From a candidate division WOR-3 bacterium (GTDB lineage Bacteria > SDB-A): a stretch of 8,571 bases of DNA. This document shows positions 188-6,534 of the stretch, piece by piece. Position numbers and translations under genes: made by a program. The notes under the pieces were generated by a model. It was not told the origin of the DNA. It was given only the letters and a program-made list of their open reading frames with translations, and ran no database searches. The stretch lies in contig JAFGON010000076.1 of NCBI GenBank assembly GCA_016926475.1, positions 1 through 8,571 of the forward strand. The letters run 5' to 3'. The first letter of the stretch is position 1. Each line of letters begins with the position of its first letter.

Positions 188-1012
188 TTGTTACTGAATT
201 CATTCTGCCACCTTGATGGAATAAACCTGATAACAGAACATGAACTTTGGAACAAAGGAATCAAAAGCTGGGAACAGGCAAATTCAAGCTTAGAAAGTAT
301 AGGTTTCTCTGAAAAAAAATGCAAAAATATCAGGAAAGGCATAGAAACCTCATTTCAGAAATTTGAAGAGAGAGCAACCGACTATTTTTTCGATTCACTG
401 CCGAGAGAACAGCATTGGAGATTTTTCAAAGAATTTAAAGATGAAATTGCCTATCTCGACATTGAGACCACCGGTCTGTCAAGAACCGACTCTGTGACTG
501 TTGCCTCAATATACTATAAGGGTAAATTGGACGTATATGTGAATGGTATAAATATGGAAAAGATGGTCCAAGATATAGCAAAACCCAAGATTTTGGTGAC
601 TTTCAACGGCAATCGATTTGACATTCCGTTTATTGAAAATTATTTCGATATTAAAATTTACCAGAAAAAAATCGACTTGATGTATATTCTGAGAAATTTA
701 GGATTTCGCGGAGGCTTGAAAAGGTGTGAAAAATCTCTTGGTATAACGAGAGAAGGAATGGAAAATCTTGATGGCAATATCGCTGTTCTTCTATGGGAAG
801 ATTATCGCAGAAATAAAAATGTAAAAGCTTTAAAAACCTTAATAGCTTATAACGCCTACGACACAATCAACCTTGAAAGACTTTCGGCAATATCCTACAA
901 CAAAAATATAATTCTTACAGGGATTGATTTCACCAAAATGGATATTCCCAGGAGCAAAGCTGTTCCATTTTTCCCAAATCCTGCTACCGTAAAAAAAATA
1001 ATGGATAATTGA
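188..1012 (+). CDS. RNase H-like DEDDy 3'-5' exonuclease domain protein (YprB-like)
   Basis: This 274-residue protein carries a DnaQ/RNase H-fold exonuclease domain. Residues 91-96 are DIETTG, supplying the acidic pair D91 and E93 (ExoI). ExoII is seen at VTFNGNRFDIPF (residues 137-148, N140 and D145). ExoIII is YNAYD at 221-225, with Y221 and D225 in the DEDDy spacing. All metal-binding acids are therefore present. The N-terminal 45 residues (FCHLDGINLITEHELWNKGIKSW) resemble the helix-hairpin-helix-like lead of short YprB-type proteins. The start is TTG at 188: an in-frame TGA sits at 170-172, and MLxNxFCH is typical of the family's N-terminus. Only a weak purine-rich site (GAGAAAG) precedes it. 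A likely role is nucleic-acid 3' end processing in the cytoplasm; the natural substrate is unknown. It ends 17 nt before the cyclophilin gene. Confidence 0.85.
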   Translation: MLLNSFCHLDGINLITEHELWNKGIKSWEQANSSLESIGFSEKKCKNIRKGIETSFQKFEERATDYFFDSLPREQHWRFFKEFKDEIAYLDIETTGLSRTDSVTVASIYYKGKLDVYVNGINMEKMVQDIAKPKILVTFNGNRFDIPFIENYFDIKIYQKKIDLMYILRNLGFRGGLKRCEKSLGITREGMENLDGNIAVLLWEDYRRNKNVKALKTLIAYNAYDTINLERLSAISYNKNIILTGIDFTKMDIPRSKAVPFFPNPATVKKIMDN

Positions 1013-3533: not shown

Positions 3534-4421
3534 ATGTTTTTCAAAAGATATCTTCCTTTACTTACATCTCTAATACTTTTCTTTATCATAGTATCTATTA
3601 TATTGTCTGTTTCTTTAAAAGAAAACAAAGGGAAATTTGTATATGCACTTGATGATGCTTATATTCATATGGCGATGGCTAAAAATTTCTCAAAATATGG
3701 TGTTTGGGGAGTTGACAAAACAGCTTTTACTTCTTCGTCGTCTTCACCTCTTTGGACTTTTCTGTTGTCGTGTTGTTATTCAGCGTTTGGCGTAAAAGAA
3801 ATTTTACCGTTTGTACTAAACCTCATCTTCTCTATAATTTTCTTGTTTGCTGTAGATATGATTTTAAAGAAAAACAGAACAGATATGAGTTTTAGAATAC
3901 TCGTATTATTGTCGATTGTATTTTTTTCCCCGTTGTATGCTCTTGTTTTTACGGGACTTGAGCATGTTTTACATATTCTTCTTGTCTCTATTCTTCTTTT
4001 TGTCTCAAAAGAAGTCATCGTCGAAAATAAAAGTGTCTTAAAAATAATACCTATTGCTTTTTTTGCTATTGCGACTCGATATGAAAGCCTTTTTTTGGTT
4101 TTTGTAATAATTATTTTTCTTTTTTTGAAGAAAAGATGGGTAAGCGCTTTGTCCTTTTTAATAATATCTTCATTGCCTGTTATTGCCTACGGACTTATAT
4201 CAGTTAGTAAGGGGTGGAATTTTTTCCCCAACCCTGTCTTCATGAAAGGGAATTTTTCAGGTCTGGTGTTCGGTGAATTGTCAAAACTTTTCAACAGATT
4301 TCTAGAGCAATCAGCTATAACCCCGGATCTTATCGTTTTAATCTTATCAGCGCTTTTATTGTCAATATTTTTGACGAAAAAAAGTTTTATGAAAACTCAT
4401 TTTTGTTTACAGTTTTTGTAG
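3534..4421 (+). CDS. GT39/PMT-like multi-spanning membrane protein, N-terminal part of a frame-interrupted gene
   Basis: This frame encodes 295 residues with many membrane helices. It contains the lumenal signature ALDDAYIHMAMAKNFSKYG (38-56, acidic pair D40/D41), TSSSSSPLWT (66-75), TGLEH (140-144) and ATRYE (180-184). These are typical of an uncharacterised GT-C-like family resembling PMT/GT39 glycosyltransferases, which transfer sugars from polyprenyl phosphate donors outside the membrane. The DD pair would be the catalytic site by analogy. The sequence stays convincing up to residue 283 (SIFLTKK) and then degenerates (SFMKTHFCLQFL) to a stop. The natural continuation is in the -1 frame (KFYENSFLFTVF). 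A one-base change at the A7 run 4377-4383 would join both parts into one protein of about 520 residues (3534-5095). ATG 3534 has no clear ribosome site, so translation may be coupled to the upstream gene, which stops 8 nt before. Confidence 0.75.
   Translation: MFFKRYLPLLTSLILFFIIVSIILSVSLKENKGKFVYALDDAYIHMAMAKNFSKYGVWGVDKTAFTSSSSSPLWTFLLSCCYSAFGVKEILPFVLNLIFSIIFLFAVDMILKKNRTDMSFRILVLLSIVFFSPLYALVFTGLEHVLHILLVSILLFVSKEVIVENKSVLKIIPIAFFAIATRYESLFLVFVIIIFLFLKKRWVSALSFLIISSLPVIAYGLISVSKGWNFFPNPVFMKGNFSGLVFGELSKLFNRFLEQSAITPDLIVLILSALLLSIFLTKKSFMKTHFCLQFL
4377..4383 (+). other. A7 homopolymer at the frame break of the membrane-protein gene
   Basis: Seven consecutive A lie where the reading frame of the GT39-like gene shifts. 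The zero frame reads ACG AAA AAA AGT. A -1 slip after the second AAA, or one extra A, gives AAG TTT TAT GAA, which continues the family-like sequence KFYENSFLF. The site could be a true indel mutation, a sequencing or assembly error, a phase-variable tract or a transcriptional slippage site; the sequence alone cannot tell. Confidence 0.65.
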
Positions 4422-5095
4422 CCGTTGCAACGATTCATTTGATTTTTGCCAGAGTTGGTTGGTTTTTCCGATACGAGGCTTATTTAATAGATATTGGAAT
4501 TTTGTCTATATCGACAATAATCTTTAAATATTTACCTGAAATTTGGACAAAGATATCTTTTTATAAAAAAGCACTCATGTTTTTGTCTGTGATTATCCTG
4601 TTTTCTCCTCTTTTAAGAAGAGCCTGTTTAGGTTTTTATCAAACACATAAAGCAACAAAAAACATTTATGAACAACAATATCAGATGGGGCTTTTTGTTA
4701 AAGAGTATTATTTGGGAGAAGCCGTTTTACTAAACGATATTGGGGCGGTATGCTTTCTTGCAGACGTGAAATGCGTGGATGTTTGGGGCGTGGCAAACTA
4801 CGAAGTTATGTGCCTTAAAGGCAAAGAAAAGTATTGTACCGGCGATTTTGAAAGGCTTGCCAAGGAATATGATTCTAAATTAGCAATAGTCTATGAAGAA
4901 TGGTTAAATTTTTATGGGGGGGTTCCCCGGAGTTGGATTAAAGTCGGTAAATGGAAAATAAAAGACAACGTAGTGTGCGCAAGAGATGAGGTTACATTTT
5001 TCGCCTTTGATGAAGATGGAGGGGAGAGGTTGAAAGCTCTTCTCTATCAATATAAAAGTTTTCTTCCAGAGGACGTAGAACAGACAGTATACTAA
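4403..5095 (+). CDS. GT39/PMT-like membrane protein, C-terminal part of the frame-interrupted gene
   Basis: This frame (nominal TTG start at 4403, but open upstream across the A7 run) encodes the remainder of the preceding membrane protein. It begins with membrane helices (TVFVAVATIHLIFARVGWFF) and contains FFRYEAYLI, a segment typical of the family's later helices. It then gives two more hydrophobic stretches and a soluble C-terminal domain. That domain includes LLNDIGAVCFLADVKCVDVWG, which resembles the NDIGA...D..G segment found in extracytoplasmic tails of related proteins. No Shine-Dalgarno site precedes TTG 4403, and no natural N-terminus is visible. I therefore read it not as an independent gene but as residues about 284-520 of one protein. 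A run of seven G at 4916-4922 inside it keeps the frame. The gene is followed by the long intergenic region. Confidence 0.7.
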   Translation: MFTVFVAVATIHLIFARVGWFFRYEAYLIDIGILSISTIIFKYLPEIWTKISFYKKALMFLSVIILFSPLLRRACLGFYQTHKATKNIYEQQYQMGLFVKEYYLGEAVLLNDIGAVCFLADVKCVDVWGVANYEVMCLKGKEKYCTGDFERLAKEYDSKLAIVYEEWLNFYGGVPRSWIKVGKWKIKDNVVCARDEVTFFAFDEDGGERLKALLYQYKSFLPEDVEQTVY

Positions 5096-5281
5096 AAAGC
5101 GTCGTAAAACTGTTTTTTAAATGAGTCTTTGAGCGCCCGAAGATTTTTAACCCCGTAGAGAATCTCAACAAAGATAAATGTCTGGAATTTTGAAGGTAAA
5201 AGAATACTGGAAAAGCGACATGTCAAGTAAATAATTAATAAAGGTAAGAATTAATAGTAGAAATTCTCATACAAAGGCTTT
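5096..5281. other. Gene-free AT-rich stretch, left half of the 302-bp intergenic region
   Basis: No gene or terminator is seen here. It contains AATTAATA twice, 16 bp apart (5233-5240 and 5249-5256). An inverted repeat AGAATT/AATTCT (5247-5252 and 5262-5267) surrounds TAGTAG. An 18-codon open frame from ATG 5178 has no ribosome site and is unlikely to be a gene. The AT-richness increases toward the TGTK array that follows. Confidence 0.5.
5254..5263 (+). repeat. ATAGTAGAAA direct repeat, left copy (DnaA-trio-like)
   Basis: The decamer ATAGTAGAAA occurs here and again at 5367-5376, on either side of the TGTK array. With the preceding bases this copy reads TAA-TAG-TAG-AAA, which fits the DnaA-trio pattern (3'-[G/A]A[T/A]-5') known from Bacillus subtilis oriC. 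It lies on the expected side of TGTGGA-oriented boxes but about 30 bp away, farther than the known arrangement. Confidence 0.35.
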
Positions 5282-5290
5282 TTATCAACA
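5282..5290 (+). other. DnaA-box-like 9-mer TTATCAACA
   Basis: TTATCAACA differs from the consensus DnaA box TTATCCACA at one position. It faces the opposite way to the TGTK units that start 3 bp downstream. A single such 9-mer is expected by chance in AT-rich DNA; its value comes from the adjacent array. Confidence 0.35.
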
Positions 5291-5293
5291 CAA

Positions 5294-5367
5294 TGTGGAA
5301 TAATTGTGGATATATTGTTGAAATTTGTTAAATTTGTTTATTTTATGTTAATTATCTGTTAATAAGA
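5294..5367 (+). repeat. Seven-unit helically phased TGTK array, possible DnaA-box cluster
   Basis: Seven head-to-tail units with no leftover bases begin at 5294, 5305, 5316, 5326, 5335, 5346 and 5357. They read TGTGGAATAAT, TGTGGATATAT, TGTTGAAATT, TGTTAAATT, TGTTTATTTTA, TGTTAATTATC and TGTTAATAAGA. The period is 11, 11, 10, 9, 11 and 11 bp, about one helical turn. The reverse complements of the first two 9-mers are TATTCCACA and ATATCCACA, close to the DnaA box; later units drift to weaker forms ending in AACA. DnaA boxes separated by 2 bp (11-bp period) and ordered head to tail are a known design in the low-affinity arrays of E. coli oriC. This may therefore be an origin-type DnaA filament site or a cooperative operator for the next gene. 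No dnaA, dnaN or other origin-marker gene is in view. Confidence 0.45.
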
Positions 5368-5376
5368 TAGTAGAAA
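5367..5376 (+). repeat. ATAGTAGAAA direct repeat, right copy
   Basis: This is the second perfect copy of the decamer, starting at the last base of the TGTK array and 113 bp from the left copy. It lies about 20 bp before the start of the membrane-protein gene. A chance origin is possible in sequence of this composition. Confidence 0.35.
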
Positions 5377-5388
5377 GATGAAATATGT

Positions 5389-5392
5389 GAGG
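5389..5392 (+). promoter_or_regulatory. Shine-Dalgarno site supporting a TTG start
   Basis: GAGG, within GTGAGGAAACA, lies 5 nt before TTG 5398 and supports initiation there. No ATG or GTG is found in this frame near the beginning of the protein. Confidence 0.55.
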
Positions 5393-5397
5393 AAACA

Positions 5398-6534
5398 TTG
5401 AGCGATAAAAAGGCTTTTAAACAGGAAGAGATTATACTTTTTGTTCAAAACCAAACAGAAGGTTGGAAAGATGCATATTTTTCTCATAATATTTCTGAAA
5501 TCGCTGAAAACAACGCGAGGACTGAATTTGGCATAAGAAACGATGAAAAAATTCTTGCTCTGATAAACGAAGCTTTTCTTGAACAAAATATTGGTAAAAG
5601 TGGGTTTGTCTTCACTGACGAAAAAATCTGTATTAAACCGCCTTTCAGAGAAACGTTTTCGGTTAAATACAGCGATTTTCCAGAAACGCCTTTTTCATTT
5701 TTCAGAGAGAAAATTTCTTTGAACGAATCTTCTTCACAAAAAGATATGGTTTCATTGTGCCAGAAAATAAAGGTATTAGCCATGTATGGAGATCCCGATC
5801 ACATAAAACTTCCTTCTGACCCCACAAAGAGCCCGCATCCTGTAAAGGACTGGTTTGTTTTTGCTCTGACTTTCATGTTTTTTATTATTTTAGTCCCTTG
5901 GCTGTCGTTTAGTGTAATTGGCCCTCGAGTTTCTCTTCCGAGCCCTGTCAGATATTTATCCTTGATAAGTATTCTTTCTTGGTTTATTTGGTTTAATTCT
6001 CATAGAGCAAAGATCAAAAGAAGAGAAAAAAAAACACTATTTTCCATTTTCAAAAGAATTGCATACGGTGTGTTTTTTTCAGCAGGATTTCTGGGGGCGG
6101 TTGTACTGGATAAGACAAGGACAAATCCCGGTTTAAATATGTCTTCTCTGTTGCCTGTTTTAGGGACGTCTTTGATTGGAGCAGTAGCTTTTATTGTTTT
6201 ATTTCTGTTGCTGGAGAGGTTTTTTCTTCTTGCTGGACATAAGAGGAAGAGAAAAATAATCGTCAGGAAGTATCTGGAAGATCTTGAAAAAGAAGACAAA
6301 AACGGATTGATAGGTCTTCTTGACGCAGGCGTCTGCGACCTGGACGACGATGCTGAAATAAGAAAAGTCTGTTACGACATCGCGAATATTTCCATAAACC
6401 CTCTTAAAGAATACTGGGATCTCCTTCAAAAATCAGACCTCTTTGATTTTTTCCAATACGCAAAAGACAGAGGATACGATTTCGAAAAATGGGGAAAACC
6501 CGAGGTAATTGTAAATAAAATTGTGACATTTTAA
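5398..6534 (+). CDS. Membrane protein of unknown function with possible N-terminal PH-like domain
   Basis: I do not recognise a named family for this 378-residue protein. Residues 1-130 are soluble. The segment DEKILALINEAFLEQNIGKSGFVFTDEKICIK (49-80), followed by FSVKYSDF (87-94), resembles the bacterial PH-like fold in which GxxFTDKGIYxK and a YxDI strand recur. The match is by eye and uncertain. Four hydrophobic segments follow at about 151-175, 184-200, 221-238 and 250-280. They are separated by a basic loop (HRAKIKRREKK, 202-212) and ended by KHRKRK-like basic residues (HKRKRK, 281-286). By the positive-inside rule these basic stretches should be cytoplasmic. The last 90 residues are charged, with an acidic patch DLDDDAE (314-320). 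The start is TTG 5398 with GAGG upstream. It is the first gene after the 302-bp TGTK-array region, which may regulate it. A transporter role is not suggested. Confidence 0.65.
   Translation: MSDKKAFKQEEIILFVQNQTEGWKDAYFSHNISEIAENNARTEFGIRNDEKILALINEAFLEQNIGKSGFVFTDEKICIKPPFRETFSVKYSDFPETPFSFFREKISLNESSSQKDMVSLCQKIKVLAMYGDPDHIKLPSDPTKSPHPVKDWFVFALTFMFFIILVPWLSFSVIGPRVSLPSPVRYLSLISILSWFIWFNSHRAKIKRREKKTLFSIFKRIAYGVFFSAGFLGAVVLDKTRTNPGLNMSSLLPVLGTSLIGAVAFIVLFLLLERFFLLAGHKRKRKIIVRKYLEDLEKEDKNGLIGLLDAGVCDLDDDAEIRKVCYDIANISINPLKEYWDLLQKSDLFDFFQYAKDRGYDFEKWGKPEVIVNKIVTF

Follow-up and report, generated by a model that had tools for sequence, protein, structure and literature searches.

An ordered run of short DnaA-box-like sequences in front of a gene coding for a protein with no recognised domain raises the question of what DnaA would do there: open a chromosomal origin, control the gene downstream, or be held away from an origin located elsewhere. 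The run lies in an 8,571-bp stretch (hereafter, the window) that constitutes the entire contig C76 of G000, a 2.15-Mb draft genome of a candidate division WOR-3 bacterium, and it was compared mainly with two sister species of the same genus (G001 and G002) and with a relative from the same family (G003), all of the genomes being drafts joined by gene order. The array occupies an intergenic gap bounded by a membrane-protein gene, which ends at 5095, and by a gene that starts with TTG at 5398. It consists of seven TGTK units at steps of 11, 11, 10, 9, 11 and 11 bp, preceded by an opposed DnaA-box-like site (Table 1), and every coordinate given for these elements in the sequence-only reading of this DNA proved to be right. 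When read on the minus strand the units terminate in ACA, as DnaA boxes do. Four of the eight sites (5282, 5294, 5305 and 5357) are near-consensus, with at most one mismatch, and the other four are weak, resembling the degenerate low-affinity sites of E. coli. Tandem Repeats Finder reports three short 9- and 11-bp repeats in the array, and slippage may have helped to build it. No Rfam match was obtained in the window. A 10-mer (ATAGTAGAAA), the complement of which resembles DnaA-trios (CTACTA), is present on both flanks of the array (5254-5263 and 5367-5376), but its distance to the boxes exceeds what the known module allows.

Table 1. Features of the window relevant to the array; mismatches are counted against the DnaA-box consensus TTWTNCACA.
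Feature	Position	Strand	Details
RNase_H_2 gene	188-1012	+	Ties the window to the neighbourhood of dnaA; comes after rsmG-EamA in G001 and G002
Intergenic gap holding the array	5096-5397		302 bp; 28% GC
Opposed DnaA-box-like site TTATCAACA	5282-5290	+	1 mismatch
Opposed pair TCAACACAATGTGGAAT	5285-5301		5282 site plus unit 1
Array unit 1 TATTCCACA	5294-5302	-	1 mismatch
Array unit 2 ATATCCACA	5305-5313	-	1 mismatch
Array unit 3 ATTTCAACA	5316-5324	-	2 mismatches
Array unit 4 AATTTAACA	5326-5334	-	3 mismatches; weak
Array unit 5 AAATAAACA	5335-5343	-	3 mismatches; weak
Array unit 6 TAATTAACA	5346-5354	-	2 mismatches
Array unit 7 TTATTAACA	5357-5365	-	1 mismatch
Downstream gene	5398-6534	+	378-aa protein without a match in Pfam; each congener has an orthologue (58% identity)

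The significance of this arrangement is carried by its phasing and by the comparison with relatives, and not by the number of near-consensus boxes, which is only mildly unusual for the gap (four against 1.2 expected, p ~0.03). Chains of at least five TGTK units were absent from 5000 dinucleotide shuffles of 5096-5397, in which the maximum was four. When 2688 degenerate 4-mer/strand combinations were tried across the window, all chains of at least five corresponded to this same array, on either strand. When clusters were ranked with hand-set box-scoring weights in a sample amounting to about 12-21% of each genome, the window came first in G000 at threshold 13 (442 kb sampled). Two other places with three boxes in G000 (C66:5098 and C37:8083) were discarded, since they have fewer boxes and fall inside a coding sequence or at its start, and a strict tandem-box pattern was likewise set aside, its matches away from dnaA lying only within phosphoglycerate mutase and phosphoglycerate kinase genes. 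A nucleotide search with the gap in 60 relatives returned only the window itself.

The relationship of such phasing with DnaA was assessed by searching 60 genomes for a phased triple-box pattern (TGTKGAWW-N1-4-TGTKGAWW-N1-4-TGTKRAWW). The window is the sole place in G000 where the pattern occurs. It is matched in nine other genomes: G013, G016 and G022 have it at most ~0.6 kb from the dnaA AAA+ domain and G039 at less than 3 kb, whereas the remaining five place it away from dnaA. The pattern is therefore a good marker of DnaA sites, but not of origins alone. The DnaA protein of the genus is ordinary, with a normal domain IV that aligns to that of B. subtilis (8btg) and matches that of E. coli (1j1v); the alignment spans the helix-turn-helix (KDHSTVIHA in the sister-species DnaA, RDHTTVIHA in 8btg). 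Together with the phasing and with the clusters of the congeners described below, these results support the proposal, already made from the letters of the window, that this is a real, ordered array of predicted DnaA boxes.

The chromosomal position of the array can be approached through gene order. It had been argued that none of the flanking genes is a usual origin neighbour, but the first 187 bp of the window are, by our own reading, the end of an EamA gene, which in the relatives follows rsmG near dnaA. The order in the window (EamA end, RNase_H_2, cyclophilin, rubrerythrin, methyltransferase, CGGC and membrane protein) recurs on the dnaA-side contigs of both congeners, save for single inserted genes. 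In particular, contig C69 of G001 carries glmS (minus strand), a 1043-aa gene (minus), dnaA (plus), dnaN, PBP, ThiI-like, rsmG, EamA, RNase_H_2 and an adenylate cyclase gene that runs on into C45, with which C69 shares a 70-bp exact overlap, and C45 continues with cyclophilin, rubrerythrin, methyltransferase, CGGC and the membrane protein; G002 presents the same order across C140 and C71. A search of the G000 assembly, which is rated 100% complete despite these absences, yielded no dnaA, dnaN, rsmG or ThiI-like gene and only weak matches to glmS. Since a single contig carries all of them in G001, the corresponding stretch is most likely missing from the G000 assembly, and the distance of the array to dnaA therefore rests on the gene order of the relatives: assuming collinearity, the 8.4 kb of G001 and the 5.1 kb of the window place the array ~13.5 kb downstream of where dnaA starts. 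The membrane-protein gene is read in the window as two overlapping frames (3534-4421 and 4403-5095), corresponding to a single 521-aa protein in G001 and G002; there is a frameshift near 4403-4421, due either to mutation or to assembly error.

In both congeners, DnaA boxes are densely clustered in the corresponding stretch, some 17-20 kb away from dnaA. In all three species of the small set compared for cluster position (G000, G001 and G002), the cluster comes after the membrane-protein gene and before the next block, and by gene order it occupies the same interval downstream of dnaA. G003, in which neither the membrane protein nor the 5398 gene was found, was left out of this placement. The gap before the 5398 orthologue of G002 contains TTATCCACA and TTTTCCACA, which are full-consensus DnaA boxes, two copies of TTTTCAACA, and TTTTGAACA; three boxes are set 11-12 bp apart in one direction and accompanied by an opposed partner. 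This cluster (C71:3146-3280) is the best-scoring of the 248 kb sampled, above the dnaA-upstream and dnaA-dnaN clusters, and lies ~17-18 kb from dnaA, a distance that includes one unsequenced join, itself estimated from G001. Among the four genomes (G000 to G003), the opposed-box motif TCAACACNRTGTKGAWW occurs with zero mismatches only at 5285 in G000 and in this gap of G002. In G001, the gap (C45:8212-8702) holds seven sites within one mismatch against 2.0 expected, and its cluster (C45:8266-8520), 19-20 kb from dnaA, ranks first or second alongside the dnaA-upstream cluster in 343 kb sampled. It has no alignable sequence or opposed-pair motif in common with the clusters of G000 and G002, and the single one-mismatch opposed-pair match in G001 was rejected as lying inside an aldehyde dehydrogenase gene.

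Box clusters were also observed at other locations. In the ~650-bp gap beside a PAP2 gene of G003, off the dnaA contig, there is a DnaA-box cluster (C312:5552-5624) composed of TGTTGAAAA, TGTTGATAA and TGTGGATAA. Another genome, G005 (two contigs, 1.2 Mb), carries four tandem TGTGGATA boxes beside nusA-infB (C2:965160-965200), ~595 kb from its best dnaA match, and it is possible that these represent an origin or a sink away from dnaA.

Among the alternatives to a site acting on DnaA itself, the main one is a DnaA-responsive operator, at which DnaA bound upstream of the 5398 gene would repress its transcription or time it to the cell cycle. This we regard as possible, albeit with clearly limited confidence. 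The array ends 32 bp ahead of the predicted start of the gene, and in G002 the cluster likewise immediately precedes the orthologue, with TCAACACNRTGTKGAWW common to both; the boxes of G002, however, are ~100-270 bp from the orthologue start. Against an operator, the orthologue of G001 has moved (C45:17.9 kb) and has a single box-like site (CTTTCAACA) in front, and the cluster precedes another gene in the origin-proximal block. Furthermore, no convincing promoter was detected (two promoter-like matches against 1.7 expected), and the protein has no known domain. A search of GTDB contigs with this protein gave no match. The operator is retained because two of the three species have array and motif in front of the same gene, and weakened because gene and cluster have parted in G001, the cluster staying origin-proximal. 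Another, rather unlikely explanation is that the opposed pair and the array form the operator of another regulator, one recognising a palindrome that looks like two DnaA boxes. The near-perfect 23-bp palindrome of G002 (TTTTCAACAC-G-GTGTTGAAAAG) and the restriction of the motif to the G000 and G002 loci are congruent with such a regulator, but the full-consensus boxes of the G002 gap lie outside the palindrome and the motif is absent before other genes.

A further candidate reading is an origin distant from dnaA, either the chromosomal one, as put forward in the sequence-only reading, or an additional one. The array does combine a DnaA-box cluster with an adjoining AT-rich element, as oriC and its unwinding element do, the AT-richest part of the gap (5314-5366) having 15% GC, and dnaA is missing from the G000 assembly. 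The head-to-tail phasing is also similar to that of the low-affinity arrays of E. coli oriC (R1-R5M-tau2-I1-I2 and C3-C2-I3-C1), made of degenerate boxes in the same direction. The weak units described here diverge to a similar extent as the E. coli sites I1, C3 and I2, which are 3-4 bases off consensus (PMC4585315), but the E. coli arrays lie inside the origin, whereas this one is on one replichore, off the skew minimum. Indeed, the cumulative GC-skew minimum is at dnaA in G001 (7-8 kb in C69+C45) and also in G002 (C11), and in G001 the skew rises almost uninterrupted for 38 kb, past the position corresponding to the array. Cumulative skew likewise climbs throughout the window, and no turning point, the mark that had been proposed for checking an origin, appears in it or in the corresponding part of G001. 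The change in gene direction is at dnaA in both congeners, and the genes flanking the array point one way, as had been noted from the outset. Box clusters exist on the dnaA side in G001, G002 and G003. From skew and gene direction in the congeners, through which the question was addressed, the origin reading was rejected, and we consider this role highly improbable for the locus. A B. subtilis-type unwinding module was also rejected, since the sole DnaA-trio-like run past the boxes (CTACTATTA, minus strand, in the 5255-5263 region) is ~33 bp away, beyond the 16-bp limit (PMC8287927); inspection by eye revealed no such run in the other clusters. A triplet run of the form CAACAGCAACAACA is found directly before dnaN in the dnaA-dnaN spacers of G001, G002 and G003 (L022:8929-9130, L023:8994-9169 and L024 about 1790-2025), where it may act as a variant of the DnaA-trio or of the unwinding element. 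Finally, an accidental periodicity of AT-rich DNA, for which the short repeats (part of the phasing could be slippage) and the modest box-count excess might speak, seems very improbable against a chain of seven units where the longest other TGTK chain is three (442 kb of G000 plus 614 kb of G001-G003, both strands, ~2.1 Mb) and against the clusters that both congeners have in this interval.

The explanation we favor, and consider probable although by no means assured, is that of an origin-proximal, non-origin DnaA-box cluster that would bind DnaA cooperatively and temper initiation, in the manner of the B. subtilis DnaA-box clusters (DBCs) or of E. coli datA. Its location ~13 kb from the expected start site and the clusters in the same neighbourhood of both sister species suggest a site that probably regulates or titrates DnaA and is not a start site. 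The comparisons establish that the array exists and is rare, where gene order puts it relative to dnaA, and that the sister species have clusters; DnaA binding, cooperativity and a titrating or ATP-hydrolysing effect are inferred. DnaA would bind the near-consensus boxes at 5282, 5294, 5305 and 5357, seeding the array, and ATP-DnaA would then spread cooperatively over the weak sites, which share one orientation at about one helical turn each. Being close to oriC, on the right-hand replichore, the array would be copied soon after initiation, and the doubled sites could draw down free or ATP-bound DnaA at the expense of oriC; the lowered DnaA may help to prevent early re-initiation. The titration and operator options are both retained, and the position is better matched by titration or regulation.

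Comparison with known systems situates this proposal. The array holds boxes outside oriC at a density above background, as expected for a non-origin DnaA-box cluster. The title of Okumura et al. (2012) reportedly calls the B. subtilis clusters oriC-proximal. In B. subtilis, DBCs are DnaA boxes clustered outside oriC that lower the DnaA available to it, according to reviews, and deletion of all six leads to early initiation (PMC5295017, PMC13220808). The likeness to them lies in boxes clustered outside oriC yet near the origin; on the other hand, here we find, at the level of sequence, one cluster per genome in the sampled DNA, a phased degenerate array and an opposed-pair motif, in another lineage. 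E. coli datA restrains initiation by ATP hydrolysis, needs IHF and lies ~0.47 Mb from oriC, as computed from published positions (PMC5742627). Like the array, it is non-coding, lies on the oriC side and mixes strong and weak boxes, and its essential boxes point in one direction, as the array units do (PMC5742627). No IHF site was found between the boxes of the array, however, the sole IHF-like match in the window having one mismatch and lying outside them (interval position 133, ~5228); the G002 cluster has none, and that of G001 has one exact match that overlaps DnaA-like boxes, so that none is conserved between boxes. The E. coli DARS core comprises three boxes, of which I and II are opposed, and DARS2 has regulatory regions for Fis and IHF in addition (PMC8682772). 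An opposed pair beside further boxes recalls the DARS1 and DARS2 cores, but here a seven-unit one-way array follows the opposed box.

A more specific proposal can be advanced tentatively: that the locus is dedicated to controlling DnaA, with a box density that equals or exceeds that of the dnaA-side clusters, and is kept ~13-20 kb downstream of dnaA while neighbouring genes reshuffle, in which a DARS-like opposed pair is joined to a datA/oriC-like one-way array, making it an independent element of the DnaA cycle in a lineage without any known. Most likely, the array joins the known class of origin-proximal DnaA-box clusters. Non-origin DnaA sites that time initiation have been worked out in a few model bacteria only, and the array is a short, testable sequence. 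It is also a reminder that DnaA boxes clustered on a contig lacking dnaA do not necessarily mark the origin. In this uncultured genus of a candidate phylum the cluster has stayed close to dnaA, which suggests that placing sink or reset sites near the origin is a more general solution.
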